Shown in pieces: positions 2,492-30,025 of a stretch of DNA of 64,000 nt. The stretch comes from Rhea pennata (taxonomy: Eukaryota; Chordata; Aves; Rheiformes; Rheidae), in NCBI RefSeq assembly GCF_028389875.1, contig NC_084682.1, forward strand, positions 4,102,001-4,166,000, read 5' to 3'. Position numbers and translations under genes: made by a program. Below the pieces are notes generated by a model. It searched no databases, had not been told where the DNA came from, and saw only the letters and a program-made list of their open reading frames with translations. Each line of letters begins with the position of its first letter. Within the stretch, counting starts at the first letter, position 1.

Positions 2492-5400
2492 CTGCGAAAA
2501 ATACATCGGGCGGGTGGTGGTGGTGGGGGGGGACGAGGGAGAGGAGAGAGACAGTTATTCACAATGTTCATAACACTTACCAAACAGGGTGCCAGATGGA
2601 GCCAAATAAAACACGAGCAAACGCTGACTCGACGATCACGCTCTCCCTCTCCAAAAGGCGCCCTACCTGCAGTTCCTCCACAGCTGTTCGCACTTCCTCT
2701 CAAACACCATGTGCTTTTACTTTTTTTTTTTTATATATAATATATATAGAGAGAGACAATTTGCAGCTCAGCCGCGCAGGCTCCAGCGGTGCCAGCGCCC
2801 GAAGCAGACGGGCGAACCACCAGCGCTGCCCCGCCGGACGTGCCGGGGATCCCAGATCGCAGCCCAGGTCTCGGGGGGCACGGACGTGACGTCCAGGGGC
2901 CTGCTGCCCCGCCTCGAGGCCTCTTTCTTCCCGAATCCCGGCCCCTGCAGGGAGGCGCTTCCCGGCGGCGCGGCGAGGGCCCGAGCGCGGGGCTCCGGCA
3001 CCGCCCGGCCTCCCGGGGCTGCCGCGGCGCCGGCCGCGAGACCCGCTCATCCTTTCTTTGGCCTCACGGATTTGTAAAACGCATCGCTTTAGAACAGCTC
3101 CTTCCTCCGTGAATCCTTTAAAAACGCTGGAAGTGAGCGTTTATTTGGAGAAGGCCCCCGTGAATCAGCAGAGGTGACTCCCACCCGCCTCCCCTTCTGC
3201 CGCTCAGCAGCGCGAAGGGGTCCAGCACGGGAGGAGAAGGATGTTAACGACACGCGGGCACTCGCGCCGCAGGAACAGCCCTGCCGGCTCGCCTTCCCTC
3301 TGCTGCCAGTAAAAGCGCGTTTTACCCAATGCACCAACACTTCCCTTTAAGGTAATTTTTCTCCCCAGACTCCCAGACCTTCTGCTGGCACCTTCCAGAG
3401 CCCAGAAGTCATAAATCCGGTGTTCCAGCAGCGGCTGCTGTATCAGTAAGAGCGGCTGGACAGCTGTACTTTCAGCGGACGTAACAGATTCATCCCTCTC
3501 CAGCTCCAGCTGACTGAAAAAGCTCGTAAAAAGGAATTCGCTGAGCTCGAATTTGCAGGAAAAGCAAAACTCCTACGGGGCTGGGTGAGGGCACCGAGGC
3601 CCCACGCGAGGACGGCTTCGGCGCTGCCCAAAACCTCCGGAGAAGCCACCGGGGACCCCGCCACGGTGCCGCCGGGAACGTTCCCATGGCAACGGCTCAG
3701 GAAAAAAAAAAAAAAAAAAAAAAAAAACATGAGGAGGAAAACCGCAGGCGGCGGCGAACCCCACCCGCACGAGCGGCCGGCGGCGGGGCGCCCTTCGCCC
3801 GCGAGCGCGGGGCGCCCGGCCGACCCGTTCGCCTGCCCGGGCCGCGTCCCCGCGGCGCGCTCCTCGGAGGGAGGCTCGGTCGCCCGCCGTCGATCCGGTC
3901 GGCCTCGAGCCGCACAAGTCACGGCGGGGCGGGAGCGCGGCCGCGGCCCCGAGCCCCCTCCTCGCCGAAAGGCCGCTTCCCGCCGCGGCGCCGGGCAGGG
4001 AGCGCGGGGAGTCCCGCCGACCCGCGGCGGCAGCGATCCCGGGCGCCACGCGCGATCCCACGGCCTGCTTCACTCAAGGTCTCTACCTCGAAGAGCGGCG
4101 GCGCGAGCGCTGGAGCTCCTCAGCCTTCCGGCCTCCCCCGGCTCCGGCCTCAGCCCCGCGCGGGGCCCAGTCGATCCCCAGCTGCTTCTCCGAGACGCGC
4201 CTGAAGGCCAGCGCGGCCCCGCGCCCTCCGCGCCGCGGAGCTCAGCCCAGCTCCGGGCCCCAGGAGCGAGCTCGCCCTCCTCGTCCCACCCACGCCAGCT
4301 CCCTCCGCAGTCCCAGCAGAACGGCGGGGCCCGCAGGGAGCAGAAGGCGGCCGGGGGGGGACGGGACGGGACGGGACGGACACACTGAAGGACAGAGCCC
4401 TGCAGGACCAGGGCTAGCCCAGGCTCCACCAACGCACGCTCAAGCCGGGGCGGCACGCGGAAGACGCACCGTCCACGCGGAGACCCCGCGCCCGGTCAGC
4501 ACGCCTCCAAGAGCGCGCGTCCCCGCGAGCCACGGCAGAGGCCCCCTCCATCCCGCCGCCGGCCCGCCGGCTCCCCGGGCGAGGAGCAGACAACCAACCT
4601 TGGCGCCGGGCCCAGGTGAAGGAACGGCTGCTCCCAACGCCGTCCGCCGCCGGCGCGGCGGCCTCGCTTTGCCAAGGCTGCGAGTGCCGCTCGCTGGGTT
4701 TGCTGGCGCTCTTCGGCGGCGCGATGTACTTGGGCAGCGCTTTGTAGAACCAGGCGCCAGACCTCTTCCAAACCTGTTGGAGACAAGGACACCACCACCA
4801 CCACCACCACCTCAGGTCGGGGCTCCTCCCGCGGCCGGCACAGGTCTACGGGGCGTCGAGCCGGGCCGCCTCCCCCGCTCCGCCGTCCCCCCGCCGCCCG
4901 CAGCGAGCGGCAGGCACAGCTGGAAGGAGGGGGAGAGGGCGATGGCGCGAGCGCGCTTGAAAACCCCCGAGCAAGGAGAACCCCACTCCAATGACCCAAA
5001 GCCGCAGCACCAAACGAACCGAGCGCTCTGCGCTGGAACATCTCCTGGGAGGACACCTCTGCTCGCCAGCTCAGCTTTAACGCAGCTTGTGATGAAGGAG
5101 CGCTGTTAAGTATATTTAATACGGAGCCTGCCGTGAGCCGGAGGAAGGGGAGAGGATGGCAGCTCAGACAAAGAGAAATATTCTCTGAAAACACAATTTC
5201 TTTGTGCCTTCCAGGAGCGTAACAAGGAGTTAATGAGACAGCCAGGGCAAAAATAAGTTAATATAGTAAAAATACAATGGAGTAGTAGAAATGTTGCACT
5301 TCTGCTCAGAGTGAAGGAGCTCATACGTGTTTCTATTCCAAGTACTTCTATTCCAAGCTATAGCCACGTTTTAGCTGTAGCGTCGCCAGGATGCGACGGG

Positions 5401-11400: not shown

Positions 11401-14400
11401 CAAATCTCCCTGTAATCACTGAGCAGCTGCACTGACTTCACTGCACAGCGGCGAGCCCTGAAGTTGGTGGATGCTGGCTGGCAGACGAGAATTGGGGCAG
11501 GCTATGACTTTTTTGCGATGTAAAGTCAAGGATGAAGGATATAAAAATTCAGAGACTTGTGCTGGAAGCCTCACGCACCGTTACAGGATTTGAGGGGGAC
11601 GAGGCAGACTTAAAAGCTGCAGTGCTAGTTATTTTTAGAGGGACAAATACTGCAGCTATGCTACAGCTTCCCCCAGCTGCATTAAGGCACACGCGGCAGC
11701 CGAGCGCGTTTGCCCCGGAGCCGGGACGGCGCAGCGGCAAACCGTAATAGCCTCTTCACGGCCGCAGCCGGAGAAGCCCCACGGCACAGAAAGCAGCGCG
11801 GGCTGCAGCCCGGTGGGTTTCTTCCCCCACCGCAAACCGAAGCCGTTGCCACTACGTGCATTCCCGGAGGCTGCCTGGCCTCGGGCCGAGCCTCCCAAGC
11901 CCCGTCCGGAGCTCCAGCCCGCTGCCCGGGCACCGGGACGAGCCCGCCCGCACCCGGCACCGCCTCCCGGCAGGTCGGCGTGCCCGCCGGGCCTCGTCTC
12001 CCCGCAGGCGCGCTTTACCTCTCTCTGCTCGCTGCAGATCTTGCACAACCAAAGCGGACGTTTCTGGCTTCCAACAGTTTCTATTCCACATTTGGTGCAA
12101 ACTTTCTGAAACAAGGAGAGAGGAAAAAAGAAGGGGGGGGGGTGTTAGCACCTATATTCCTCACAGCCGTACAGCCCTTGGCAGAGAGGGGGCTGACAAG
12201 CACCTGACCCAACAGCTTTGTCTCGCTTTCCTTAAAAGCCTAAACAGGGCACAGTTCTCTTATTTACCCTGGAGAACTGCTAATCCCAAGAAGCTGCTTC
12301 TGGTCTACAGAGATGCAAGACAAATGCAAACCTACCGCGGAGTCCCTGACTCCAGGCTGAGACGAGAGCCAGACAGGGCAAATCAAACCACTAAACCAAC
12401 AGGAACAGTTCCAGAGCATTTTTATTATTTCCCACGCTCAGCCAAGTGTAAAACGAACACTGGTTTGTTATAGCTCAAAACCCAAACTGAAGCAAACATC
12501 AAAAACTGTATTAGTGGGTTTTTAATTACTCCATGTTTGTGCAAGACTGGAAACCCTCCCTTCTCTTTCTTCACGTACATAGTCTTAGATCCCATGGCTT
12601 CGCCTTAATTTCAGCAAGCACTTGGCAGCTATTGATTCGTGGCTGCTCGGCCATGCCTGCTTGCGCAGCTCCTCAGCACGGCGCCGCGGGGCACCTCTCG
12701 CCGCACAAGGGCACCGTCCTTCCTCCGCTGGCATTACGAGCCATTTACAACCCAAATCGCTCAATAACGAAGCTGACGTGTATCAGGCTTGGCTTACAGC
12801 TCAAATGAGAAATTGGATGAATTCTTTGATCCTCACAGAGCAAAAGCCGCTCACAAGAGGGCCCTGGAGAGCAAAACCTTGCTCGGCGAGACGAGCGAAT
12901 TTAATCTCCCCAGCTAAGGCTTCCCACGCGCCCTGCTCGGCCGCTCCTCCGCCAAGCCAGGCGGCCTGTCCGCAGGGACGAACGTCTCCGTGGGGCACTC
13001 AGCCCCCGGAGGAGGCGAGCGGCAGAACGACGGTGCCCGAAGCTTTGCCCTCGGCGTGCGAGCAAACTTAACACGTCCAACTATTTTGCTCGGTGCGACC
13101 CAGAGGCAGGACTCTCGGCTCAGCCGCCAGCTCAACACGCAGCTTTTGCCAAGGCTCAGCTCAGCGTCCGTGCCCAGGGGGCTGTTTAACAGTGTTTCAG
13201 CTCGGGCTGGGATGCCCGCAGCTTTTTTACGAAGGGTAGACAGCACGGCCACACCGTCCCCTCCCAGCTCACCAGCCGCCGCACGGCGGCATCGCTGCCA
13301 AAGTCATCAGCCAGGCTTCAGGACGCCCCTCCAGTCCCTCCTCGGAGGCAGCACCGGCAGCGAGGTCGGGACTTTCCTCCATCTCTGTTCCCATCCTCGC
13401 TGTTTCTCTCCCAGAGAAACAAGGAGCGACCTATTCGGTTTGGCACACCAGTACCCAACGCGGCGCTGCCCAAGCCAACAGGAACCGCAGGTGCCAAAGG
13501 CGGATGTCTCCTCCCCTCCCACCTACCCCAAATTCTCAGGGGCAGGCTGCCGACTCCGCCATACGAACCCTCAAAGATTTCCATCCCCACGTGGGCATAG
13601 CACATTCCAACGCTCCCTCTAGTGGAAGTTTCCAAGAGATTTTATTCCTAGCCATAAATTTTGAAAGCTCAGTATATAACACAGGGCTTTCTTCCTCCTC
13701 TTCTCTGCAGATTAGCTGGAAAAATGAGCATCCCCCACAACCTCTCAGAAGACGACATAAAAATTAAGGACACTAAATGCAATGCTGTTCCTCATTAAAT
13801 ACAAGAAAAAGCATTTTCCTCTCCTACTTATATTTCACCTTTCATACGCAATGCTGATACCCTCTGCATGATAAATTGCACATTATGCTTTGTCTAACTG
13901 CTGCTACTGTTAACTGATCTGTATTTTCATACATCTGTCTTCCATAATGCATTTATTTCTAAGATAATAAAACTAATATTAAAAATATTCTTCATTTTGA
14001 TTTATAAATGCTAAAACAGAAAGTGGCACTTAGAAAATCCATCTGACTACAAGAGCTATAGAACCTCTATTCTACAGAAAAAACTTACTGAAGGTAAGTT
14101 CACAGCTACATTTCAGATGCATCATTACAACAATTCTTGTTACTGACCTAAATGGGCTACAACGACTTTCCAATCAGACAGTAATATAGCAATGCTAGGA
14201 AGAAAAATATGAGCTTTAAAAATCCATAATTCCCTGCAAGTCATTGCTTACTGCACACAATACTGCACGAGTGATGAATACCCCGGGAGGAGAGGGAACG
14301 AGCTTGAAGTAACAGCCCCCTCCACGTGCGCCCTGCTGCGGGCTCACTGTTCCCTCAGCTCACGCTGTAACACGGAAAAGTCCTGCGGGACAAGCCCGGG

Positions 14401-17400
14401 GCGCCCAGCCAGCCTTGCCCGGAGCTTGCACGGAGCGGAAAAGTGCAGCCAGGCTGAGAGCAGCTGCAAAAGGCACACTGGAAAGCAGGACCTCACCTTA
14501 AATCAACTTGCGTTTGTATCTTCCTGAACTGCCCCACGGACTCCAGGCAAAAAGGGAATAACCACAACCCCCCCCCCTTTTCCTCGGCGGTTTGCTGACC
14601 GCAGCCCCCCAGGAGCGCTGGGCTCGCGCAGCCTCGCTCGCTAAGGGGGCTCCTGCCTGCCGCCGCGAGGAGCCGGAGCGGGGGAAGCTCTGCTCCGGCT
14701 TCTGCCTCCTCATTAGCGCCCAGGGCTCGTAAGGCGGAGGTTGGAAAGTGCTGCAGCAACGTGACCCTCTGCACTAGCTGGCTTTGGGCGAGGTGAGAGC
14801 AGAAACACCAGGGGAAGAGGGCAGGAACGCAGCACATCCTGTTATTCCGCGTGCTTGGAACGCAGGAAGCGGCCAGCGGGCTCCTGTCGGCAGCCAGCCC
14901 CTTACTCCCCCCAGGTGCCTGCGCCCGGAGCCCGCGCGTCCGAGGGAGCCGTGCCGCAGCTCCCATTTAAACCAGACTTACTTCCCAGTACCTTACTGCC
15001 GCCTCCTTCGCTACCCCTTCCTCGGAGCGCCGGCCGAGGACCCTGGTGCTCAGAAGTTTGCATTTACCTCCCCAGCTCCTGCTGGGAGCAGCAGATCACA
15101 GGCTCTGCCAACGGTCAGTGCCAGCGCAAAACGCCCTCCACCATGACCTCCACGGGGACCAGCACAGCTGCAGGGGCCCCAGCTCACACCAGTCCCCCCC
15201 CCCCCCGAGGGCACCAGCTGGGGGGTCAGTGCTGTCCTGGGGGCTCATCTCCCTAGTGATGGGGCGGGTGGCACGGGCCAGCGTCTCTTTGGCTCTGGTC
15301 CCCACCAGGGCCAGAGTCAGCACAGGCTGCTCCCTTCCACCCGAGCACCAGGCAGAAACGCTCCGGGCACCCACCAGGCCCCCCGGCCTCTCCCCAGGCA
15401 CCACGCCGAGGCAAAGCCGCTTACAAACAGACACATCTCCCCAGGGAACGAGGACAGGCTTCAAGTGTGGGGAAAACAGCCTCCCGGCAGAAGGAGGGTA
15501 AGGTGGTTGCCTTGGAGATCATCATCTCCACAGCAATACGGGTTAACGCTTGCCTGCCCGAGTCCACCGAACGCAGGTAGCACAACCACCTCCCTGCAAA
15601 CCGCTGCTCCAACTCCGACAGCGGCACGCAGTCCTGCCAGCGACAGACTCGGAGAGAGGCACCAAAGCACAGGCTAATTTAGGTATCAGGGTTGGAAACC
15701 TTACACTGGTTTGGGGCTTGAAGATGGGCTCGAGCCTTTTTTCCTCCAAAGACCCATGCTGTTGAAAGATCTAAGGACAGACCGTGCAGTAGCAGCACAG
15801 AGCACAGCTCCTTTGCTGAGCTGCCTCTGATGACCATACCGTTCTGCCCCGTCCCCCATCCCCAAGCCCAGGGTGGTCAGTCAGCACCAGGATCTTTCAC
15901 CCCCTCTAACTGCAGTTCAGGCTCGGGAATAAACTCCTTAGTCCTGGGGAATGGGGTACCCGGGCTGCGAGAGAGAACTTGAGAGTATGGTAGCACAACC
16001 CCGGGCACGCGGAGCTACGGTAAGCCAAGACTACAGAGCCATCTGAGAGCCCTGGTGGCCTTCCCTAGACAGACCTGCTATCAGGAACGGGCAGGAACCG
16101 GCAAACCTACCTTTCTGCAGTCCTGGCAGAAGACGGACGTGCTCCCCAGCAGCCCGAGCAGCTCGCCGCAGAGCAAGCACTGGGAGAGCCCGTTGCCCAT
16201 CGCGTTCTTTCTCATGTTCTCCAGCCGCTCCACCAGGCGCCTGCAAGGCGACGGGGCAGAGCTCAGATCACAGCAGTCACCTCGGAAATTGAAGCGCACG
16301 ATATTGTGGCAACCGCACTGCTCTGGGAAGAGGCACGCCACGATCCGGGCTCCAGACTCAGCCTATCATTGCTGCTTCTGCGCAGGTTTGGGCACCTTGC
16401 TAGGACCATAGCTACTTCCACTTCAGCCTCTACACCCAGTGTCTTCTATCAGCCGGCTGTTGGCCTTCAGGGGACCCCAGCCCATCTACAGATGCTCACC
16501 AAGCCTGGAACCACCAGCTCAGGAACCCGACAGACCTGGCTCAGCTAGTGGGCGCAGGGCAGACAGTTTGCAAGAAGGGCTTGGTCCCAGCACCCTTCGG
16601 GAGCTCAGCGTCACCTGGGCTGCACAGCCTCAGCGCCGTGATTTCCTGGCCACGGAACCACAGAAGCATCCAGGGCTCAGGCCAGGGAAAGCGAGACAGC
16701 AGCAGGAAAGAGCAGAGCCGTCAGCGCCACGACGCCCAGCTCTGTTCACACCCTTCCCCTGAACACAGCCCTGCAGGAACACGACTCGCCAACATCTCGG
16801 TAGAAGCAGGAGGGCCAGAGTGAAGCCGCCAGACCCAAACGAGCCCGGCACATCCCAGGAACACCAGTAACTGCTCTCCGCTTCGCTCAGCAGCCTGCTT
16901 GGAAAACAAGCGGCACATATGTGTGCACAACGCCCGCGGCAGCAGGACTACGGAAGGGAAAGAAGGAAAGAGGAGCAATTAGGATGCAGGATGCGGAGAG
17001 CACGCAGAGCGAGGCTGCTGCCACGAGCTCACTGCCTGGCGAGTCTCAGACGGGAGGGTAACGGCCAGGCCGTTTATCAACGGCAGGCACCAGCCGCCGT
17101 CCACGCGGCCCCGCCGTCCACGCGGCCCCATCCTCGGTTCTCGTTAGCGCTAACGCTCCATCAACCAAGCCCCGCACGGAGAGGGAGGCCAGGTCCGTCT
17201 GAAAGAGGGACCGCCCGCGGTGGCGAGGTCAGGCAGCGCAGCCAGGCGTTGCTGCGTTCACGATCCTTGACTTGAGCGCGCGAGAGCACGCAGAAGCTCA
17301 CAGCAGCGTTTCAGAGAGGGCTCAAGCGCAAGGCGGCAGCTCTCCGCAGCTGCATCAACAACCGCGCAGGAGCGATCAGCCCCTCGGGGTCACCGGCCGC

Positions 17401-19003
17401 TCCCGGGGGCCGGATCCTCCCGCGGACCACGCGAGCGCTCCCGCCAGCTCCCGCCGGCCGGCACCGCGCAGCGACGGAGGTCAGCACAGGAGAAGCAAGC
17501 CGGGTCTGCCGAGCCCGGGCCGGGAGCCACCGGGGCTTCCTGCTCGGCAGACCCGAAGCGCGGCTGGAAAACGGGGCAGGACCGCCCAGCCGCCCGGCTT
17601 TGAAGGCCGGCGGCACTGGACTGCCACTGCCGCAGCTGAGCCCAGCGCTCCAGCAGGGCTGAAAGCAAACGAAAACCAGCAAAAAGGAGGAGGAAGATGC
17701 CCATAAATTCAATAATCCAAGCTAACAAGCCCCTTCCAGAGAAGTCAGCCAACTAGAACACGAACTCATTCACTACTCCAGGCAAAATCCCAGGGGGCTG
17801 CTGCGGACAAGGGAAAAAGCTGGCCGCGCTGCCGGGAGCGGGCTCCGAGCCGTGCCCTCCAACGAGCAGCCGGTGCAGCTGCACAGCTCGGCGCCTTCCC
17901 GAGGCTCTTCCAGAGCTGCTGGGGCAGCTGCCTTAGCACAGGCTGCGTTTTCCAGGCACTGGGCTGGTGGCCGTAACTCCAGCGAGCCCCAAGGCTCGAA
18001 GAAGATGTGGCAAAGGCTTGAGCCATGGGGAGAAAGAGAAACCCCGTCCTTCCCAGCTCTCATCACCTCCAAACGAGCAGCACAGGAGGGGTAAAAGACG
18101 TGACCTAAGGGAAGCCCTGGCTGATGGCGCCCGAGCTCAGGCAGCCCGGAGAGCTGGCCTCCGCCTGCACTGACCTTTCCTTCTGGGGGAAGGGGACAAG
18201 CGAACGTGACCGTACCCGATGCGCTGCTGCTCGATGATGTCCAATTTCTCCGCCTTGCGGATGACTTCCAGAATGACCTCAAGTTCCTGCGGGCTCAGAG
18301 CCTGCATCTTCCTCTGCTTCTCGGTCTGGAACGTGTGCACCGACCAGCCGGTCTGGAGCCTGCAGGGATCGCGATGGACGGAGGAGTCCAGCTGCGAGAG
18401 GAGAGCGCAGGACCCCCGGCCGCGCGCGCGGGCCGCTCCGCACGCGCCAGCCCGCCTCCAGAGGAGCCTGCTGCCCGGCCGGGGCCCAGAGCAGGAGTCT
18501 CCTCGCACTCTCCCAGCGGCGCCGAGCGCTGGCGACTCTCTCCCTGCCATTTGATTTGCCTTTCTGGTCCCATTTGTGTTTTACCGCCCCGTACCCTCGC
18601 TCTTGTTTGACTCTGCCCTGCAGAGGGGAGGGATCGGTGGGAGCACGTGAGTAAGAGAAAAAAAAATACACAGTTGCATCTAGGGCGAGGATATCTTGGG
18701 GGTATCCTTGCAAAGACGGGCGCCCATGCGAGATGCTGCAAGCGCCAGCAGCAGGCTCCAGAACCGAGCAGCTACCTGCACCCTCCTCCCCCTGCCCTTT
18801 ACCTTCGAGTGGCAGCAATTTAATTTTGGTGGGGGGAAAAAAAATGACAAGTTCCTGCCACAAAAGGGCGCCGACAGCTGGGGAACGGCATCGCGGGGCG
18901 CCGCGGAGGGGTTTGCTCCAACTCACTTGGCGCGCAGGGCCAGCTGCCGGTCGTTGGGGCAGACCCACTGGCCGGTGCCGCTGCCGAAGATGGTGTCGGC
19001 CAT
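2250..19003 (-). CDS. RPH3AL: RPH3AL (Noc2, rabphilin 3A-like without C2 domains), complete coding span, six exons
   Basis: The coding sequence joins 19003-18927, 18359-18216, 16240-16111, 12105-12019, 4773-4599 and 2491-2250, in total 855 nt or 284 residues plus stop. All five junctions are GT-AG and the phases agree. The protein opens [18 protein letters not shown] and has a helical Rab-binding segment (about residues 27-90). An eight-cysteine FYVE-like zinc finger follows, made of four CxxC pairs at C95/C98, C112/C115, C120/C123 and C138/C141. Next come the Rab-contact motif SGAWF (151-155) and an acidic-serine tail beginning [11 protein letters not shown]. Noc2 is a cytosolic effector of Rab3/Rab27 on secretory granules and lacks the C2 domains of rabphilin; human Noc2 is 315 residues, so this one is a little shorter, mainly in the poorly conserved C-terminus. 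The gene ends before the left flank, where DOC2B would be expected, and RFLNB lies upstream, as in human. Confidence 0.93.
2492..4598 (-). other. RPH3AL: RPH3AL intron 5
   Basis: GC-rich intron. It holds a T run plus (TA)n/(GA)n at 2720-2757, a 26-base A run at 3702-3727 and (GGGAC)n at 4358-4379. Near its 3' end (2513-2527) it carries CCA triplets on the transcript strand. No other gene is seen. Confidence 0.7.
3702..3727. repeat. Poly(A) homopolymer, 26 nt
   Basis: An uninterrupted A run on the plus strand. No SINE or retrocopy body is recognisable beside it. Confidence 0.9.
4599..4773 (-). CDS. RPH3AL: RPH3AL coding exon 5 (residues 147-204, SGAWF Rab-contact motif)
   Basis: The acceptor TCTCCAACAG precedes [17 protein letters not shown], which carries the SGAWF motif shared by rabphilin and Noc2. 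The rest is a serine/alanine-rich linker ending SFTWARRQ, matching human YTWARGR. The exon ends in phase 1 (G) before the donor GTTGGT. A run of GGT triplets lies just upstream of the short pyrimidine tract of the acceptor. Confidence 0.9.
4774..12018 (-). other. RPH3AL: RPH3AL intron 4 (7.2 kb)
   Basis: Alternating CpG-dense patches (about 5570-5870, 6490-7290, 8290-8560, 9500-10000, 11700-12000) and AT-richer stretches. Open frames here are GC-driven. None resembles a known protein or carries a convincing splice pair. A (GGT)n run on the transcript strand lies at 4791-4810, next to the acceptor. Confidence 0.6.
4791..4810. repeat. (ACC)n microsatellite next to the RPH3AL exon 5 acceptor
   Basis: About seven ACC units on the plus strand read GGT on the transcript strand. 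They end 17 nt before the first base of exon 5. Confidence 0.9.
12019..12105 (-). CDS. RPH3AL: RPH3AL coding exon 4 (residues 118-146, second half of zinc finger)
   Basis: The acceptor TTGTTTCAG precedes 87 nt, exactly 29 codons. It reads KVCTKCGIE and then [14 protein letters not shown], giving the third and fourth CxxC pairs. The donor is GTAAAG. Both ends are in phase 0, matching human Noc2. Confidence 0.92.
12106..16110 (-). other. RPH3AL: RPH3AL intron 3 (4.0 kb)
   Basis: Mostly unique sequence, with an AT-rich block at about 13660-14280 between GC-rich sides. It contains a CTCF-like motif at 13612-13625 and short C runs near 14569 and 15191. No further gene is seen. Confidence 0.6.
13612..13625 (-). 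promoter_or_regulatory. CTCF-like motif
   Basis: The minus strand reads CCACTAGAGGGAGC, which fits 13 of 14 positions of the CTCF consensus CCASYAGRKGGCRS. It lies inside RPH3AL intron 3, at the edge of an AT-rich block. Confidence 0.4.
16111..16240 (-). CDS. RPH3AL: RPH3AL coding exon 3 (residues 74-117, first half of zinc finger)
   Basis: This 130-nt exon has the acceptor CCTTGCAG and the donor GTAGGT. It encodes [19 protein letters not shown] followed by the first two CxxC pairs (CLLC and CQDC) of the FYVE-like finger. Bases 15-126 of the exon are repeated in inverted orientation at 20525-20636 with a single mismatch. This copy retains the reading frame and splice sites and is the functional one. 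Confidence 0.92.
16241..18215 (-). other. RPH3AL: RPH3AL intron 2 (2.0 kb)
   Basis: GC-rich unique sequence with a CpG-dense patch at about 17040-17660. A 17-bp unit (GCCGTCCACGCGGCCCC) occurs twice in tandem at 17096-17129. No other gene is seen. Confidence 0.6.
17096..17129. repeat. 17-bp direct repeat, two copies
   Basis: Two adjacent identical copies of GCCGTCCACGCGGCCCC within a CpG-dense part of RPH3AL intron 2. Confidence 0.8.
18216..18359 (-). CDS. RPH3AL: RPH3AL coding exon 2 (residues 26-74, Rab-binding helix)
   Basis: The acceptor CCCTGCAG is followed by G, which completes Lys26. The exon reads [10 protein letters not shown] and then the charged helix [20 protein letters not shown], the N-terminal helix of the Rab-binding domain. 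It ends in the codon for Gly74 before the donor GTACGG at 18215. Confidence 0.9.
18360..18926 (-). other. RPH3AL: RPH3AL intron 1 within the coding region (567 nt)
   Basis: CpG-rich at both ends with a short AT-rich centre. No other feature is recognised. It lies between the two exons that the inverted exon copy and coding exon 3 would bracket in the pre-mRNA. Confidence 0.6.
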
Positions 19004-19025
19004 GGCGCCGGGGCAGAGCTCGCAC
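18927..19025 (-). CDS. RPH3AL: RPH3AL coding exon 1 (22 nt 5' UTR plus residues 1-25)
   Basis: The acceptor CCTTCCAG ends at 19026, leaving 22 nt of 5' UTR before the ATG at 19003-19001. The start sits in a strong Kozak context (GGCGCCATGG). The exon encodes the conserved Noc2 N-terminus MADTIFGSG and stops after two bases of Lys26. The donor GTGAGT begins at 18926. Confidence 0.9.
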
Positions 19026-20524
19026 CTGGAAGGAGCGCGGGCAGCGTCGGCGCGGCGGCACGGCGCCCGTCGCCCGGGGTCGCGTGCCGCAGAGGTCTCT
19101 CCTCCGCACCCAGCAATAGAGACAAACCGTCACCCTTGCAAAATATAAGCCAGCAAATGCCTTCAAACACTGCATTAAGACAAGTCTGGAAGTTCAGATT
19201 TTCATGGCACTCTGGAAAAAACCCACACTCTTCCCCAGCGCTGTCGCAATTTTTCATTTCAAGTGAGCGAAAAGCGTTGTTTATGAAAACAATCCCTGCC
19301 CCATCCCTAACGGGGCAGCCCGGACAGGGAAAGCCCTTCCGACGGGCACGGAGCAGCCACGGCTGCCGGCTTTCACCCCTTAACGGGGCAGCAAACAGAA
19401 ACCCGCACAACAGGCGGCACGAATAGTGGCAGGTCATTAAAACTGCCTCCGTAACAGCCCGATATTTATAACCGCAGCCCACAGTACCGCTTTGAGTAGC
19501 GTTTGAGGTCTCTGATGTTTAAGACAGCAGCTCTTTTAGCAGAGCTGCTGTGGCTCGTGCGCAGCAGAGCCACGCCGACGAGTCCCCGCGTTCAACAGCA
19601 GTTTTGCCACGAGCAGATCAGCAAAGGCAGCAAGGGCCAACTGCAGGGCAGTTTTTTGAGGAAAGGCATCCCCAGAAGCACCTCCACAGCTAGGCAGTCC
19701 TGGCTCCTACCAGCAGCTCCGATGAAGGGAAGGCGCCAAGGATCAGAAGCAGCCAAACGACTTCAGCGAAGGCAAAACCGGCCTCGACGTACCGAGCTTT
19801 CCTCCAGCTGGATTCCCTCTCCGGCAGGGTAAGCGTCTCATGAGCCCTGATGCATAAATTTGCAGGCATTAGTGCTTACCTTTCCCAAAAGGGACACTCG
19901 CTAGCTCTAAAACCGCACCTGCTGGGCAGAGATAACGTGTTTGAAGCAGTTTGGCAAGCGCAAATCAGATACAATACCGAGCGGGTTACATCACCCGCCA
20001 ACCGTGCCGTAATCCCCAAGGAAACGCACGTTCTCGTCCCAACCCTCAGCACCCTTACGGCGCGCCCGCGCCGCTCGCTACCCACCGCCGACCCGCGGGT
20101 CGCGAAGCTACGCCTTCACCTAGAGCGGCCAACGTGGGATTTTGCAGAGGTTTTCCAAGCCTGCGGCGAGCTGCTCCAGGGTTACAGGCAGGCATAACCC
20201 CCCCCCCCCGCGAACGCACGCGTTGAACGGCTCCTCCAGCGTGCCCCGCGCACGCCTGCGCAGCCCGCGGGACCGGCGTCCACGCGCAACCAGCCCCGGC
20301 CCCGCGGGATGCTCAGCAGAAACCCCCGGGCAGAGAGGGCCCCGGGGCCGGGCAGAGCAGCGCAGCTCGCTCGCCAGCAGGAACGTTTACGGGAGCGTTT
20401 TCTTCCAGCAGCGCTGAGCATCTGCTGCTCCCTCTGAATTAATCCGGCACTGCAGGTGGCTTTGCAGCCCTGCCTCTGAAGAAAAGCAAAGCCCAGCGTG
20501 GTTTGACACGAGCGTCTCACAGGA

Positions 20525-20636
20525 GGCTGGAGAACATGAGAAAGAACGCGATGGGCAACGGGCTCTCCCAGTGCTTGCTCTGCGGCGAGCTGCTCGGGCT
20601 GCTGGGGAGCACGTCCGTCCTCTGCCAGGACTGCAG
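20525..20636 (+). pseudogene. Inverted 112-bp copy of RPH3AL coding exon 3
   Basis: The plus strand here matches the minus-strand exon segment 16226-16115 at 111 of 112 bases. The one difference, at 20620, changes TTC (Phe) to CTC (Leu). Homology starts at exon base 15 and stops at base 126 of 130, and the flanking introns do not match. An AG (CTCACAG) precedes the copy, but no GT donor follows the homologous part. The frame is open ([20 protein letters not shown]), but the copy is antisense to RPH3AL, so it cannot be an exon of that mRNA. It may be a recent exon-limited duplication or an assembly error. Confidence 0.85.
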
Positions 20637-22434
20637 GACTGCGAGGAATTATCAGCAAGCTCTTTTCTTACTGATGCTCTACAGCTTGCTTTAAAAACCT
20701 TCCACCCGTCTGCCCCTTTGCTACGATGGAGGAGGGCCGTCACACGAAACTCAACCTCACGAAGTCCGAGCCCACCCGACCGCACGAGGCGCAGAGACGC
20801 CGAGGCTTTTCGGTTTTCCTCGCCAGAACAACAGCTTGGACAGAGCTTACCTCTCATACCGGAACGGACACAGCGGACCAAACCAAAGGCGAGCACGGGA
20901 CCTGCTATCTGATGAGCCCCGAAAGCAGATGCTTAACGAGCACAGTGAGGATCCAGCAACGCTTCTCCAGAACAGCCCCCAGTGACTCCTGGGCCAGGCG
21001 CTCCCTGGACCAGGCTGCAGCTCTGTATTTAACACCCTTAACATTTTTCCATCCCAAACTTATCTACTTGGTTTTTGAGCTCACATACGGTTTTAGCATC
21101 ATCTTAATATACCGAGTCCCTTCTGTATTGCCCCATTTCAAACGCATTTTTTTACCTTGACTACGTCAAAAGCGTAGGGTCTTGCCTGCAGACGCTCTGA
21201 CATTGAGATAGTCACTGCTGCAGAAAACACGTCCTCGCGGCAGCAAAAGCAGAGCCTGTGCAAGGCCTCCTGCAGCGGGGCTGATTACAGGTGCCCACGA
21301 AGCGTGAAATCCCCGGGGCCCTGCGGACACCCCGCACGGGCCCAGGAGCGGCTCTCTGCTCAGCCATCGTTTGCCTGATTATTTCAGCGAAGCAGCTCAC
21401 GTCTATGTAAATTTGTTTTTATAGGGAATTAATTAGGCTTTTTTTTTTAAAAAAAAAAAAAAACAGTTCATTTAAAAAGTAAAAATTAAACAGCTGGCCA
21501 GAGCCAAGCTCCTGATTCCCAGGCTGAGCGGTGCCAGTGTAATTAACTCGCCCGCTTCCCAGCGGACTCCCCGCTCGCGTCGGGCACCTTTCTGGCCCAT
21601 TTTTCCTCTTAGCCACTGCTCCCTCAAAGACACGGCGTAATTGCTCTCTGCTCCGCACACCAGACCCTGTTATCCTGGGAAACCTTGGCAACTAAGTGAA
21701 TGTTTGCTCCTGTTGCTATGACAGAGGATAAATGACTCGCGGCGAGAGATAACGTTAACGGAGGCGCTGCCTCCCCGCTCCTACCCGACGCTCGTCGCGC
21801 GGCGGGGGACGAGTGCCAGCGATCGCAGAAGGTTATTTCTTGCGGATGCAAGCCTCCCTCTCAGGTTTTACAGATCCTGGGGCTGCAGCCGAGCTTCAAA
21901 GCGCAGGACTGTTTCTAAACAAGCCTCAGAGGCTGCGGGAGCGCGACAGGAGACCTGCGCTTTGCTTCCAAGATGAGGCCACGTCGCGGGGAAGGGAGCA
22001 GACCCGTAAGAGCTGGAGGGCCACGCGATACAAGCGGTTGGACGCGCTCCGACATGACTGACATCTCCATGGCCTGGGCCAGCACAGACGGAGAAAACAC
22101 GGTGCCCCAAAAAGCACCACGAAGCCCGGGCAAGCTTTTAAGGATCCCGTGAGACCTTCTCCGAGTCTGTCCCACCGCGAAGGCTTGGCCTGAGCGGCAC
22201 CACAAACCTGAAACGTTCGCTCACGTTAACTCAGAGGCTCAAGCTCCTGCAAACTCTCCCCTCCCGCTACCAGCAGCGTTAGCTCCGCTCTCCCACGCGC
22301 GAACACCCGCTGCGCAGCTTGGCCGCGGCCCCCTCCGACTCCATATGGAAAAGCCCGCAGGACCGGCGCTCCTCGTAGCGACGGCAGCAGCTCGGGCTCA
22401 CGGGGAAGGAGCTGGGGCAGTCCCTGCAGCGTAC

Positions 22435-22580
22435 TCACCGATCACAGCGCGAGCACCAGCCGCCGCGGCCCTGCGGCGCTCTGCAGCAGGGAGACGAGCG
22501 CCAGCGCGGCACGCAGCGGAGCGGCCGCGCTCAGAGCCAGGCGTTCGGGTCTGGTCGGCCCCGTTCGAGGTGAACTCAGC
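22435..22580 (-). promoter_or_regulatory. Candidate RPH3AL 5' non-coding exon with donor at 22438
   Basis: A CpG-dense stretch on the minus strand ends in the consensus donor CG|GTGAGTAC (last exonic base 22439). It lies 3.4 kb upstream of the exon carrying the ATG, which itself opens with a splice acceptor, so at least one non-coding exon is required upstream. The exon's 5' limit cannot be seen. Placement is inferred from the donor and the composition. Confidence 0.33.
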
Positions 22581-23520
22581 CCGGCCTCAGCACGCAGAGG
22601 TCTCGTAAGGACAAGCTGCAACAGGAGCAAGCGGGGTGAGGTTCGGGTGGGAGCCACAGAAGGTTCCCGGGTGCTCGAGCTGCTTCCCAACCCTAGCAAA
22701 AATGGCAAGAAACTTTACTGCTCTTAAGATGGAGCTGGTTAAAGAGATTATAAAACCCAGTGCCCTGGAGGTCCCTGCCAGGCCTGTAAGTGGGAAGATA
22801 AAATCAGCTCTACAGAAAACCTGACATATGGTATCAACCATCCTGCACTCGTGAGACGCACTCATTAGTGCAGCTACTTGATGCACAGTAAGCTACGAAG
22901 AACTAGATTTTTCCCAACCAAAGCAGTCTTCTGGCTCCCCAGCACCCGGCAGTGCCGGGGAGGAGAGCCAGCCCGCTCCCAGCTGCCGAGGTGCACCCTT
23001 ATTCATCAGCCCTTGGCCCTGGCTCCCTCTGATCCCTCGCCAGGCAGGTGCGCGGGGCGGAGTGAATAATTCATGACTGCAGCAGACTCGGATTCTGGGG
23101 CAGGTTGATCTGGCGTAGGCTTCGGAGAAGGCAATTAGCATCTAAATGGCCAATTAGAGAGACTCATTTCGCTATTCTGATATGCTAAAAAAGCCCAGGA
23201 GGCCTCACGTGTGGCAGGAGGTTGGCGCAGCCGAGCCGGCGCCTCCCGAGAAGCTTAGAAAGAACCGGCCGGAACAGCGACGGACAGAGACGAATCCCTC
23301 GTCGGAGGGGAAAAAAAACCCGACGCGCCGGGCGGGCAGCGCCGGAGGCAGCGTGCGGGGCCGCCCCGTGGGCGGGCTGCCGGGGCCGCGGGGCCCCGCG
23401 GAAGCAAAGCCGGCGGCTCGGCGCCCCTCGACGGCGCGGCGAGCGGCACACGCGTGGGCCCGGCGGCACGTCCAGGCCCGCGGCGCCGGGCGTTTTGGGG
23501 CTGAACACGCTGCTTCCAAC

Positions 23521-23577
23521 CCCCCCCCCACCCAAAAAAAAAAAAACAAAAAAAAAAAACAAAAAAAAAAACAAAAA
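23521..23577. repeat. C run followed by interrupted poly(A)
   Basis: A C-rich run, then three long A runs separated by single C bases. It is simple sequence inside the CpG island. Confidence 0.9.
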
Positions 23578-23860
23578 CACAGAACTCTCGCTGGTGTTAA
23601 CTGCACGAGGGGAAAAGTCCCCCGCGGGGCGCTGCCGCCTCCCCCCCGCCCTTCCCGGCTCACCGCCGCCGCGCAGCGCCCGCCCCGGCGATCGCGGAAA
23701 CGCCGCGCACCTGCGCCGCGCCGCCGAGCGGCCCCGCCCCCCGCCGGCCCCGCCCCCCGCCGGCCCCGCCCACCCCGCGCGGCCCCGCCCACCCCGAGCC
23801 GGCGCCCCCCGCGGGCCGAGCACCCCCTGGCGGCGCCCGCGCGGCGGCCGCGAAAGCCCG

Positions 23861-23891
23861 GAGCGGAGCGGAGCGGAGCGGAGCGGAGCGG
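23861..23891. repeat. (GAGCG)n pentamer repeat, about six copies
   Basis: Perfect GAGCG units inside the CpG island, just upstream of the GC boxes relative to RPH3AL transcription. Confidence 0.9.
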
Positions 23892-24600
23892 AACCTCCCG
23901 TCCCGGCGCCGCTCGCCGCACGCGGCCGCGCTATGGGGCGTGAAACGGGACCTCCCCCCCCGACACCCGGCAAAAATACACGCGCGCACACGGAGACACC
24001 TCGGCGACGGCGCGAGCAGGCAAACGAGCGCACGCCCCAGGCAGAAACCGCCTCCGGGCAGAAACCGCATCCCCAGCAAAAACAAGAATGAAATCAAATA
24101 CCCGCCCCCAGCCAAAAGAACCTGCGCCTCCACCCCAGCAAAAAGAGCCAACACTGCCTGCAAAAATCACCTCCAAGGAAGAACACCCCCAGCAAAAAAA
24201 GGAACACAAGCACTCTCCCCCCAAGAAAAAAAGAAAAACCCACCTCAGAAAAAAAAGGAAAAACCCAGTAGAAATATCCGCAGAAACGCACGCAGAGTGA
24301 AACCGCCCGCCTCCTGCAAAAACATGTCCCCCCCGCGCAGCAAACGCACCGGGGGCCCCGGCTGCAGCGCCCGCGGGGCCGGCCCCGAGCTGCCTCCGCA
24401 GACGCGGCCCCGAGAGCCGCGGTGGGGGGAGGCACCGCGGCGGGGGGGAAGGCCCGGGGGGCGGTGGGGTGGGAGGGGGCCCGTGCCAGGCCCCGCTCCC
24501 CGGGCCGAGCCGGCTGCTCCCCCCGCCGACGGCACCGGGCGGCGCTGGCGCGGCCGCCCGACGGGGGCGAGTCCCGCGTTTTCCCACGTTATCTGAAAGT

Positions 24601-26700
24601 TTCTAGAAACCTTACTGCGAAAATCACCTCGCTCTCTGCGTCAACGGATCGCAGCTTAAAAATATAAACCCAGCGGCCAGGAACGGGGCCCGGGGAGCAC
24701 GGGAGCCGGGGTTACGTTAGGCAGTCAGATAAACGTACGCTTCCCACTTAAAAAACAAGATTTTAGATCGTTACAGCTTGGGCTTCTCATTTTGGGGCGA
24801 GCGCAAGGCAGGGCAGGCCTCGGCGCGGCCCCTCTGCTCCGGGCACTGCCGGGGGAGCTCGGGGGCACGCGGAAACGCGCGAGGTTTTAGCACCGGCCCG
24901 CGGCCTGGGCGAGCTAACGCAGCACCGAGCTGTTAGCGTCGCGGAAAAGCTCCTAACAAGCTGCGTAGCTCAGTGCTGCTCACTCCGCCGCTTTACGGCT
25001 GCGCAGAGAACGGGACACCAGCGTTTAAAAAGCAGCAAACAAACCAGACAGAACCTTTACTTAAAATTCAGCTATTTCAACAATGTATTTAGAGTCCTCC
25101 TGTCCGTACTGCCCATTCGTCCTAAAGTACCGCTAATCATTGCTATTAGTTTATTCCTCAATAATATGCATTGCATTATCCCTGAGCATTTAATGATTCA
25201 TGTATGTTGTAAAACTAACAGGGAAAGCCCTTGTGGCTGTTGGGGAAACGACGTCTGTGATGTGATATTTGAAGGCTAAAACGACTTACAGGCATACATA
25301 CTTACCGAGCATTTCAAACAGAGCCAGCTACACGGTTGGGACTGGAATCCAGCCCTCTGGTCTCCTGGCCGGTGATCTAATTGCCAAGCACAGTGTTTTA
25401 TTTTGTTACAAAAACATGCATTGTATAGGTCCCCCAGAGCTGACATTTTTGAGATGCAGAGCATATACAGTGAAAAATGGGCTTATCCATAGTATGGGCT
25501 TACCCCGTGGTATCTACTAACTAGAAGCCTGTATTGCAATATGATTTTAGAAACACGTCAGTGAGCGGGCTGCCCTGCACCCACCTGCTTCAGCAGAAGA
25601 GCAACATCTATCACGCTGTGTCCTGCTACAGTGTTGAAATTAAAAACAAGCAGAAAAAGCCAAGGGCACGCAGAAGGAAGTATTTCGAAGTTAGATGGCA
25701 CATCTGAAAGGAGCAAAAGGTTTCTAGTTTCCTGACGCCCTCCTAAAAGATACAGCTCTGATTTAAAAGTTTTTCTTAATATCTCTTTGTTTGCACTTTT
25801 ATAAAGCAATTAAGGTTTATATATAGCTTTTCTGCTGTTTAGTACTTTAAACACTGCACGATACTGGGATGCTTGCGCAGACTTTTGTGGCGACGGGGGC
25901 GTGCTTCAGAACAGCTTCAGAGCTCCCTAGATTCCAACAATGTCATTGCATGTAAATCTGGAGCGTTTGCAAACAGATAACCAAATGAACAATAAAAAGT
26001 AAATGAAAAATCCTATTATGAATTAATTAACTGATGTTCTATTGTATCCATTTCTGCTCTGCTGGAGGTACGAACAAAATCAGCACGCCTGCAAATCCAG
26101 AAGGGTTTAACACCACATTAACTGTCTAGAAAAACAACACAGCATTTCTCCCAAAATGATAGTTTGTGACCACCTACCTCGCTCATATAAAGTTTCACAC
26201 GTAACACAATCGAGTAAATATAGCATAAAAGCCAGACTGATGTAGCATTTGAACATCTACATTTTTATCCAAAATTAAAAAGAAATTATTGTCTGGTTAA
26301 ATACTTGTTATATTTAAAAAGGACAACTGCTTCAGCTGCAGGATGTGCTGAAGTCCACAGCAGAGACTCTCCCTGTAAAAATAAAACTGTACCAGATGAA
26401 AGACTCAAATACATACTGGAGGGGATTTTCAGCTGTCTTCGAGGCACTTTTTCAAGCATCTTACTAAACTGATAAAGCCACAACATTTGTTTTCTTCTGT
26501 TTTTCTTTAAATACAGACAGTTTTATATAGGAAATGCCTTCCTCGAATGTGCAACAGTAATGCCTGATGTAAGAGAAACAAAAGGGGATCTCAGACTGGC
26601 AGGATATATTACATATTTATTTCCAAGTAAATACCATAACAAACAGAAAAATTTTGAATAAAAAATAAAAAGACCTCCCTATATTACAGTTTTCAGAACA
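24601..26700. other. Intergenic DNA between RPH3AL promoter and RFLNB 3' end
   Basis: The composition shifts from GC-rich to AT-rich at about 25.0 kb. No coding exon, RNA gene or repeat family is recognised. In human the small gene LIAT1 lies in this interval on the opposite strand, but no LIAT1 coding sequence was identified here. Confidence 0.5.
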
Positions 26701-26706
26701 TTTATT
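26701..26706 (-). terminator. Candidate RFLNB polyadenylation signal
   Basis: AATAAA on the minus strand, about 1.9 kb past the RFLNB stop; a second AATAAA lies at 26616-26621. No AATAAA was seen closer to the stop, so a 3' UTR of about 1.9-2 kb is inferred. Confidence 0.35.
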
Positions 26707-28630
26707 ACTAGTTAAAATGAGAAAATCAAGAGGAGGAGCTGGGGAATGTCACAGACACCAGAGCACTTGCGCAGAGCTAATCAGAGCTTCGCAAATGTTG
26801 GATCTCCGATAATTTAAAAAGCATCTCTACCGATTAAAGTACGTTTGAGAGGTACACGGTTAAACCTGCTTGTTTTATACATCGGGTGTTTTATCCTAAA
26901 GGCGTAACGTAAGGGTCGTTTCGTTTCTAATTTAACCAGGAAGGAGTAACGATTACAACTTAACGCAGTCTCTCAGCTCTCCCGGCGGTGAATTCACGGG
27001 CAGGGCGCAGCCGGGGCGGTCCGGGCACCTCGGTGCTCCCGCACGCCGTGCCATGCCGTGCCATGCCGTGCCATGCCGTGCCGTGCCGTGCCGCGGCGGC
27101 TCCCCCGAGGAGACCCTGGCTCACGCCCCCTCCGAGCGGCCGGGCCCCGGGGCGCCACGGCGTGCCCGGCACCGAGGAGCTCAGCGGGAAGGCTGTGCTG
27201 CTCCGACGAGCAGCGAAGGCGACCCGAACTCGGCACGTCCCCCGCGTCCACGGCACGCTGCGTCCCCCGGGAACTGTTGTAGGGTCTGGTTTTCTCAGGC
27301 AAGTACCAAAGATTAAGGACGTTCTGCCTTGAGCTAATATATAAAAAAACAAACACGAAACCACGCAAGCTCAAGCCTTCCGTCCCCGCTGCGCTTTCAG
27401 CCCCGCGGGAACCCTTGCGCGCCGCTCAGCACGCGTGCACGCCCTCACCTCAGCACCCTCTCCGCACCCCGCTGCAGGAAAACCTCCCGGGCAAGGTAGG
27501 AAATCTCCACGTTGCTACTTCCATCAAAGCACATGACAAACTAACGCACACACCATCCAGCTGGACTTCGCAGAATCCGAAGTTATTCCCTTTGGCCATA
27601 AAACACACCCGTGTTCCTGCCTACCTCTTCCTCGGAAAGGACCCGCAGCCGCCACCACGACGGCTCCCGCGCCCGATCCCAGCACGTCCTTCCCCGCCCG
27701 CGGCCCATCGCACGCTGCGGGTTTTCCAAACCTTTCCTGGTTACTAACTCGGCCAGTGCGGGCAGCACAGGCAAGACTGGCCGCCGCCGCCTTCGAGACC
27801 TCGCTGCCGAGGGCTGGCTTTGCAGCAGCACTTTTCAACCTGACGCTCTCCGTTACGAGTCCACCTACCCGCGCGCGAACGTGCGCGTGTTACACTGAGA
27901 CAACAGGGTTGCAGGAGTCGGCACGGAAAACGCGCTGTTCCGCTCGCCCGAATAACGTGAATAACCTGATCCCTGCTTGGCTGCCTGGAGCTGCAAGAGC
28001 AGTTTTCTCCCACTCCGCTCCTAAATCCTCTTTCCAAATCGCACCTCTGAACCGGACGTGAATGCAGCAGGGTAACATTTCTGTACGTGTTAAATGCAGA
28101 GTTCCAGATTTTCTCCCGGTTAGCTTCTTCCAGGAAATTTCAGGAGATCGTTGTGTCAGAGAAAACAGCCCCATGGTTTAAATTGACACAAATGATAGCT
28201 CTGCTCGTATGTAATCAAATGATCTGGTAGATTTTCTGCAAGAGAGCGAACTGCCCTTATTTTTGCACACCGCTACAAAGCGGCGAATGCATTTCCACCT
28301 GTCAGACGCTATTCCCGATTCTTCCCTACCTGTGAAATCGCAATTAACTTTTTCTCTAGAAAAATACTTCCCCTTATTTCTATCTGATTACTGCATTGCA
28401 GGGGAGGGGAGGGGAACTAACAACTTTTAAGGCAACGAAACAAGCTCCTTACGAAGGGATGCTCCCGCGGAAGACTGGGGTCAGGCCATTCTCGTGCTTA
28501 AAGCAGGAATTAAGAGCTGAGACAGGCGGCGACAAGTAGGGTCCCTTACCCCGGCCGGAGCGCTGCGGTCTGCCCCCCCTTTAGCTAACGGGGGGCTAGC
28601 GCAGCGCCCGGGCCGGACCGCAGCCGGCAG
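26707..28630 (-). other. Probable RFLNB 3' UTR
   Basis: The stretch between the RFLNB stop and the first downstream AATAAA. The middle part (26980-28060) is GC-rich and contains a pentamer repeat at 27044-27093. Assignment as UTR is inferred only from the absence of a nearer polyA signal. A separate CpG-island transcript cannot be ruled out. Confidence 0.35.
27044..27093. repeat. GCCGT/GCCAT pentamer repeat
   Basis: Ten pentamer units, first alternating GCCGT and GCCAT, then only GCCGT. The repeat creates several ATG words on the plus strand that have no coding meaning. Confidence 0.9.
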
Positions 28631-28961
28631 TCAGCAACCGTCCAGGACGCAGTCGTTCCCCAGGGACTCCGACGTTTCCAGCTCGACGCTGGAGAGGAAG
28701 CGCCGCAGGGATTTCCGACGGTTGTAATCCAGGGTGGTGGTGTACACAGCCTTGGCGTGCTTCGGGTAGACGATGGTGGTGCTGGTGAAGCGCAGGGGCT
28801 TGTTGCGGGGCTCGAAGCGGAGCTCCGCTTTGTAACTGCGCCACGTGCAGTTCGGGACGCACACGACCGTCTGGCTGCAGGACGAAACGCTTAAGCCCAC
28901 GGGCATGTAGACGTCGTCGATGAAGTGCTTCTCTGAGTCGTATTTAACTGAGGACGTGTAC
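28631..28961 (-). CDS. RFLNB: RFLNB coding exon 3 (residues 105-214 and stop)
   Basis: The acceptor GTACTTCAG is followed by G, which completes Arg105. The exon encodes YTSSVKYDSEKHFIDDV and continues through the conserved refilin body to RRFLSSVELE. It ends NDCVLDGC and TGA at 28633-28631. The reading is continuous and closely matches human refilin B. Confidence 0.95.
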
Positions 28962-30025
28962 CTGAAGTACCAGAGAGAGACGGAGGCGGGTTTCAATTCC
29001 ACCGCGGGACGGCAGGCAGCACTTGTCGGAAAAAGAGCTGGCAGGACTCTAGGTCGCATCCTCAGCTCTGGACCCGGCCGCTGAGCCGCGAGGACAGCCG
29101 CCAAGCACAGAAACCGTCTACCGGCAAAACCGACGCTGCTGCAGCGCCCGGGTTGCGAGAGGCGGCCCCCCTCCTCCCCGCCGTGCGCCCAGGGGTTGCC
29201 CTCAGCACGTTGCAGCGCGTTGAAAAGCATGCCCGTGGACATCCCTTAATGCTGACTTTTAGTTCATGCAACTGGCGATAGTTGGTAAGACAGAAACTTC
29301 TTATTACAAAGTCACAGGAAAAGCAAAATTCCTTTCCTCTAATAAAACAGCCTCTCGGAAAGACTACCGCACCGAAGACCTTCCCTCGCGACGGCGTTCA
29401 ACCTGCACAAGGGCGATGCTTGGGAGCCATGCAACGAAATAAAAAGCAGGAGAGCAAAATCCAGGAAGTCTTCCTGGAAAAAAGCCTTTCCCTGCGAGAG
29501 CGCCCGGGGCCGGGCCCGCGCAGCAGCTCTGCGAGGGGAGCCGCTCGGGCCAGGCCCGGCGCGCCGCGGCGGTTACCTGATTTCCGTCGGCGGCAAGGGG
29601 TCAAACTCGACGCCTTCGCCGAAGGAGAGCGGACAGAGCCTCGGCGGGCAGCCGGAGAGCGAGGGGCTGGGGGGCGACGCGGAGGTCTGCGAAGGAGCAA
29701 AAATAACATAAAATAAAGAGAAACGAAATAAAAGAGCCGTTTTAAGGGCGGGCGCCGGCCGCAGCCCGGGCGGGGGCGGGGGCGGCCGGCACCTCGGCGC
29801 CCTCCCCGCGGGCGCGCTCACCGCGGCGGCCGGCGCGGCGCCGTCGGGCTCCGGGAAGCCGCCGGGCGAGCGGCGCTCGGGGCTGCCGGCCGGCAGCGGC
29901 CAGGCGCCGGGGCCCGGGCCGGGGCTGGGGGGCAGCCCGGAGTCGGGGCTGTCCAGCGGCCCGTCGCCGCGCTTCCTCGCGTCCGGCAGCTCGGGCACCT
30001 CCCGCAGGCTCAGCCGCCCCACCAT
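28631..30025 (-). CDS. RFLNB: RFLNB (refilin B, FAM101B), complete coding span, three exons
   Basis: The coding sequence joins 30025-29822, 29686-29577 and 28961-28631: 645 nt, 214 residues, the same length as human refilin B. The N-terminus MVGRLSLREVPELPDARK and the segment LDSPDSGLPPSP match human FAM101B. They are followed by a proline-rich variable region, then RLCPLSFGEGVEFDPLPP, and the conserved C-terminal body ending YNRRKSLRRFLSSVELE. Refilins bind filamins and reorganise actin into perinuclear bundles; they are cytoplasmic and short-lived. Introns are small (135 and 615 nt). The gene lies between RPH3AL and VPS53 on the same strand, as in human. Intron 1 is stop-free and a multiple of three, so its retention would keep the frame. 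Confidence 0.95.
28962..29576 (-). other. RFLNB: RFLNB intron 2 (615 nt)
   Basis: Bounded by GTAACC and ACTTCAG. The part from an ATG at 29242 down to exon 3 is open in the exon 3 frame. Otherwise nothing is recognised. Confidence 0.8.
29577..29686 (-). CDS. RFLNB: RFLNB coding exon 2 (residues 69-105)
   Basis: The acceptor TCCTTCGCAG precedes TSASPPSPSLSGCPP and the conserved RLCPLSFGEGVEFDPLPP. The exon ends two bases into Arg105 before the donor GTAACC. Confidence 0.92.
29687..29821 (-). other. RFLNB: RFLNB intron 1 (135 nt, stop-free)
   Basis: A short intron with a good pyrimidine-rich 3' end. It is 45 codons long in the reading frame and contains no stop, so unspliced transcripts would still encode an in-frame protein. 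Confidence 0.85.
29822..30025 (-). CDS. RFLNB: RFLNB coding exon 1 (residues 1-68)
   Basis: The ATG at 30025-30023 has a strong context (GGCCATGG). The exon is exactly 68 codons and ends in phase 0 at the donor CGCG|GTGAGC. It encodes the conserved MVGRLSL start and the SPDSGLPPSP motif, then a Gly/Pro/Ala-rich stretch typical of refilin N-termini. Confidence 0.93.

Follow-up and report, generated by a model that had tools for sequence, protein, structure and literature searches.

The RPH3AL locus

The window, by which we mean the whole 64,000-nt stretch of Rhea pennata DNA under analysis, carries on its minus strand coding exons 1 to 3 of a zinc-finger gene and, on its plus strand, an inverted copy of most of the third. 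The features, with the evidence for each in brackets, are as follows.

16111 to 16240, minus strand: 130-nt coding exon 3 of RPH3AL, which encodes the first half of the zinc finger of FYVE type (reading frame, with TTGCAG as acceptor and GTAGGT as donor)
16115 to 16226, minus strand: source stretch inside RPH3AL coding exon 3 (alignment with the copy; splice signals and frame)
18216 to 18359, minus strand: RPH3AL coding exon 2, 144 nt (edges from the reading frame; trial edges 18217-18362)
18927 to 19003, minus strand: coding part of RPH3AL coding exon 1, where the start codon lies (sequence and frames)
20520 to 20524, plus strand: CAGGA abutting the left junction, a possible short target duplication or microhomology (junction comparison)
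20525 to 20636, plus strand: inserted copy, 112 bp, in exon-sense orientation, antisense to RPH3AL (111/112 to the reverse complement of 16115-16226)
20634 to 20638, plus strand: a second CAGGA, spanning the right junction; the copied piece ends in the first three of these bases, CAG (junction comparison)
23001 to 25000, no strand: strong CpG-rich block, an inferred candidate for the RPH3AL promoter (GC content and CpG ratio)

The three coding exons are in frame and add up to 351 nt (77 + 144 + 130). The translation of the joined exons matched Pfam FYVE_2 (E 8e-28) and, as its sole match in PDB at E ≤ 0.001, rabphilin-3A (1zbd chain B, 1zbd_B; E 1.3e-30). We presume, following the first-pass annotation, that the gene is RPH3AL and not RPH3A. 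A search of the assembly with the RPH3AL exons gave eight matches, namely four RPH3AL exons, the one copy and three places on contig C17, which presumably represent the paralogue RPH3A.

A likely acceptor, recognized by eye, lies about 23 nt upstream of the RPH3AL ATG and suggests a candidate upstream exon in the 5´ UTR. In seven windows of 500 bases within 23001-25000, GC content was 0.63-0.74 and the observed/expected CpG ratio 0.81-1.22, with much of the 16-25 kb region GC-rich as well and not the CpG block alone. If this block at 23-25 kb is the promoter, it and the acceptor together suggest that the copy lies in a 5´ UTR intron of RPH3AL (intron 1).

A unique inverted copy of part of exon 3

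In an ungapped alignment, 111 of 112 bases of the plus strand at 20525-20636 agreed with the reverse complement of 16115-16226; the two arms are separated by 4,298 nt. This was the sole inverted repeat of at least 40 bp reported in 10000-30000 (seed 14), and comparing the window with itself by BLAST at E ≤ 1e-4 returned, besides the exon-3/copy pair (E 1e-50), a single short pair in direct orientation at 1.4-1.5 kb. A 361-bp query (20400-20760) searched against the 1.27-Gb assembly, with very common words skipped, had two matches, the copy and RPH3AL exon 3. The assembly has 180 contigs, and the chromosome-scale contig with the copy is 13.0 Mb long. Given its length and identity, a chance origin of the match is excluded; the inverted copy 4.3 kb away that the first-pass annotation had described is thus real in the alignment, the inverted-repeat scan and the assembly search alike.

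The single mismatch (exon 16131, copy 20620) is T to C on the exon-sense strand and changes TTC to CTC, the Phe-to-Leu codon reported earlier. The residue at this position is Val in rabphilin-3A (the 1zbd match) and Phe in human Noc2. The resulting divergence of 1/112 has a 95% Poisson range of 0.02-5%, and three assumed neutral rates (1.5, 2.2 and 4 × 10^-9 per site per year) give point ages of about 2-6 My, with 95% ranges that span approximately 0.1-33 My. If the error was made by repair synthesis itself, the mismatch gives no date. The suggestion that the event was very recent is thus compatible with one change in 112 and is only weakly bounded by it.

Edges, junctions and flanks of the copy

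Aligned with the exon at 16111-16240, the homology stopped 14 nt inside the 5´ exon edge and 4 nt inside the 3´ edge, at the distances given in the first-pass annotation. The copy omits 18 of the exon's 130 bases, and none of the splice-site sequence was copied; introns, splice sites and junctions to other exons are all absent from it. It had been called bounded almost exactly at the exon; it is indeed wholly exonic, but it is contained within the exon and does not match its edges.

Just outside the junctions, in-register identity to the flanks of the exon was 3/30 and 9/30, and the 300-base flanks of the copy aligned with those of the exon no better than mononucleotide shuffles did (score reached by 53/300 shuffles for the 5´ flank and 300/300 for the 3´ flank). 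The flanks are not homologous, and the claim that copy and exon have no intron in common was borne out. A decayed segmental duplication was ruled out by the same flank alignment. No poly-A tract was found after the copy at the 20525-20636 junctions, and the 112 bp contain no exon-exon or back-splice junction.

The CAGGA repeat at the junctions is only a hint, since, among 20,000 random segments per definition, a 5-mer repeat arose by chance in 0.8% when the definition was strict and in 35% when it was lax. At the left, priming junction we saw by eye at most a broken GGA match and no clear microhomology. If CAGGA is a 5-bp duplication, the empty ancestral site would read ...CTCACAGGACTGCGAGG..., with CAGGA once. 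As to the marks of a LINE-type retrocopy or class 1 templated sequence insertion polymorphism (TSIP), poly-A is absent and the CAGGA repeat is 5 bp long, with three of its bases common to the copied piece.

A second local inverted copy nearby

We compared with itself a stretch comprising the window and the 200 kb to its left on the same chromosome (264,000 bases, 84 of them N; BLAST, E ≤ 1e-6, low-complexity filter on). This survey yielded 28 self-similar pairs, 23 direct, among them tandem arrays and copies of a unit of approximately 525 bp, and 5 inverted: the exon-3/copy pair, two pairs involving a dispersed repeat, one 72.6% pair, and the following.

L017:2799-2903 against L017:3952-4052 (C20:4044799-4044903 against C20:4045952-4046052): inverted pair, 105 and 101 bp, 94% identical, 1.05 kb apart

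The two places of this L017 pair were each other's sole matches in the assembly. A 13-bp direct repeat, GAAGCTTGGAGGT, at L017:3935 and 4050 marks the edges of the 3952-4052 copy, and this identifies 3952-4052 as the inserted copy and 2799-2903 as the source; by a crude null that also counted tandem arrays, repeats of at least 10 bp occur at such junctions in 1,355 of 200,000 segments drawn at random. The source lies within an open frame of 87 aa, but the translation of this frame had no Pfam match at E ≤ 1 and a best PDB match at chance level (E 0.88), and the source has no relatives in the assembly besides its inverted copy. We read the source, without proof, as non-coding, though it may be an unrecognized exon. 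Because it gives no sign of coding beyond the one open frame, the process that places inverted copies of approximately 100 bases of nearby unique DNA is probably not exon-specific. The view that the exon limitation of the RPH3AL copy needs a special explanation is weakened by this pair, whose source is apparently non-coding, although one example cannot settle the matter.

Other self-similar sequence was also noted in the survey. The 72.6% inverted pair, over 186 bp and 0.87 kb apart (C20:4017090-4017261 against 4018133-4018312), may be an older event of like kind or a repeat. The inverted pair C20:3916668/3995600 was rejected as a local copy; it is a dispersed repeat (at least 40 scored matches of 2,253 candidates). 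L004:4668-4798 is a dispersed repeat of approximately 135 bp found in at least 40 places genome-wide at 92-96% identity, and in its sequence it resembles a tRNA-derived SINE with a CR1-like tail. At C20:4059715-4063161 (L018-L019), three direct copies of the ~525-bp unit, 97-99% alike, lie within 3.5 kb and are a young local direct duplication.

Potential of the copy for pairing and splicing

In the transcript orientation of RPH3AL, the copy would pair along its full 112 nt with the 130-nt exon 3, the one difference forming a G-U pair. The predicted duplex energy was -277 kcal/mol; among 195 other segments taken from 16.3-30 kb, the mean was -88 and the best value -124. In principle, the copy could act as a cis-encoded antisense of exon 3, with the 112-bp pre-mRNA duplex changing splicing or recoding the zinc finger by A-to-I editing, an effect we consider very unlikely. 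The plus-strand frame through the copy is open for 83 aa. We nevertheless rejected a functional plus-strand alternative exon, for which we found no plausible donor downstream: the 124 bases at 20637-20760 contain only two GT dinucleotides, both far from the consensus, and this makes the copy implausible as an exon on that strand.

Probable origin of the copy by local templated insertion

The first-pass annotation had named template switching as one option among several, and with sharp ends, unrelated flanks and a local donor this is the best-supported reading. We consider it probable that the copy arose as a local templated insertion while a germline DNA break was being repaired, an origin for which no function is needed. 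The observations in its favour are the copy itself, its sharp ends and unrelated flanks, its uniqueness, and the second similar local event; an intact donor for the inserted piece is present nearby (exon 3, 16115-16226), and its distance of 4.3 kb, with no further match in the assembly, favours a local template.

The break would have occurred near 20524/20525, approximately 1.5 kb upstream of the exon with the RPH3AL start codon, and synthesis from one of its ends would have used 112 nt of nearby sequence as template, from 16226 down to 16115. By fold-back, the left end would have been resected and the 3´ end of the plus strand would have read its own strand from 16226 to 16115, a geometry that would yield exactly the strand seen. 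The new piece would then have been joined to the other end, possibly via CAG, the 3-bp match within the 5-bp repeat CAGGA. The existence of a break is our inference, as are the fold-back or template switch, the polymerase involved and the pathway of joining. Exon 3 would have been copied because it lay within reach of the break, and its edges were not respected, as the 18 missing nucleotides indicate.

Events of this kind are known in other systems. According to a yeast study, inverted local templated insertions at breaks measure 2 to about 150 bp, mostly <14 bp; one end primes at a microhomology while NHEJ joins the other (PMC11724301). Such fold-back or template-switch insertions (of polymerase-theta or MMBIR type) resemble the copy in being short, copied from nearby and inverted, with an intact donor, sharp ends and, in the copy possibly, a few bases shared at the junctions; the copy is longer and further off (112 bp, 4.3 kb) than most fold-back events described in yeast (PMC11724301). 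For human meiotic breaks, another study describes polymerase-theta joining together with template switching, gives 2-4 kb of single-stranded DNA per break, and infers from its model a polymerase error rate of 1.2% in the inserted duplications (PMC7615360). With these figures, a distance of 4.3 kb and a single mismatch in 112 bases agree roughly, not exactly. The human class 2 TSIPs are alike in lacking poly-A, in keeping an intact donor and in size, the copy falling within the experimental range of 73-414 bp, but their donors are distant, whereas the donor here is 4.3 kb off (PMC5110952). Short-range template switch mutations in great apes likewise copy nearby sequence as its reverse complement and leave an inverted repeat; in that study, the template was required to lie within 100 nt of the mutation cluster, compared with 4.3 kb here (PMC7954356).

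Several considerations count against this origin. Clear microhomology is lacking at the left junction, where priming would have taken place, and the 87-aa open frame over the L017 source leaves the comparison event only putatively non-coding. A DNA template makes the exonic content of the copy improbable a priori, since approximately 0.5% (50 per 10,000) of 112-bp pieces within 5 kb lie wholly in coding exons 2 and 3, although this is less unlikely than it appears, the event having been picked by a reader who recognizes exons. An intramolecular fold-back would also require approximately 4.3 kb of single strand, a length that most fold-back events in yeast do not approach.

The exon limit is the sole argument for an RNA template, that is, for the reverse transcription, into a break near the gene itself, of either a piece of spliced RPH3AL mRNA or a circular RNA made of exon 3 alone. 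There is precedent in the study of human templated insertions: these include cDNAs with several spliced exons, reverse-transcriptase inhibitors cut experimental insertions more than three-fold, and neither poly-A nor a target duplication accompanies class 2 events, which could hold for such a copy too (PMC5110952). The copy nevertheless has no exon-exon junction, back-splice junction or poly-A, although an RNA fragment shorter than the exon would look alike in the first two respects. Its position 4.3 kb from its own gene further disfavours an mRNA or circular RNA acting in trans, which by chance would land within 5 kb of that gene approximately 8 times in a million (10 kb of 1.27 Gb), and nascent RPH3AL RNA at the locus includes introns and so would leave the exon limits unexplained. 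No other RPH3AL retrocopy was found among the eight exon matches in the assembly. We therefore did not find support for the insertion of a spliced or circular RNA, as had been suggested, and regard an RNA-templated patch as unlikely. A processed pseudogene or retrocopy would share with the copy its intron-free exon sequence, but the copy lacks a splice junction and poly-A, lies beside its own gene and represents one partial exon; this candidate was rejected, no other copy of RPH3AL exons having been found in the assembly save in the presumed paralogue on C17. An edited RNA as template was also rejected: the change would be A to G on the RPH3AL transcript strand, and a single transition carries no weight.

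The near-identity of exon and copy could also reflect an assembly or library artefact, in which an inverted piece of the exon entered the consensus through a chimeric read. The usual chimera has one junction; here a 112-bp piece has two junctions that return to one target, plus one base difference, in a chromosome-scale assembly (180 contigs, the contig itself 13.0 Mb). The similar, diverged (94%) L017 pair nearby, with its 13-bp flanking repeat, indicates that real events of such form seem to occur here, and we judge an artefact quite improbable. Inverted repeats can convert each other, and similarity limited to exon sequence might be all that gene conversion has kept alike of an older, larger inverted duplication, another explanation proposed in the first-pass annotation. 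The flanks do not support it, as the 300-bp alignments left no residual similarity above shuffles and in-register identity just outside the junctions was 3/30 and 9/30, and conversion tracts would need to stop at both edges of the duplicate; we find this scarcely credible. A last alternative is that the copy is a selected element, kept because its pairing with exon 3 in the pre-mRNA controls splicing or A-to-I editing. The complete 112-bp complement, its predicted energy far below that of other segments, and a CpG-rich block at 23-25 kb that suggests transcription of the copy in a 5´ UTR intron would fit such a role, yet any inverted exon copy inside its own gene gives such a duplex, and skipping the 130-nt exon 3 would shift the frame. 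We hold selection for this function to be exceedingly unlikely.

Implications

On this reading, the copy is a clean example of a local, inverted templated insertion that caught an exon. Since a similar copy of apparently non-coding DNA (L017) lies approximately 76 kb off, it looks like an ordinary mutation that happened to strike an exon. The inverted RPH3AL exon copy is a known kind of event; among the papers listed in our literature searches, which do not prove absence from print, we noticed no published report of this one.

The copy illustrates how a sharp, exon-limited DNA copy can mimic an RNA insertion. Together with the L017 pair, it suggests that scars of approximately 100 bp copied from 1-4 kb off may be countable in this genome, the two in 264 kb being too few for a rate. 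Should the cis-antisense reading be true, a repair scar would have turned into an exon-specific switch. If the site of the copy is transcribed, it would provide a natural test of how a near-perfect intronic antisense exon affects splicing and editing.
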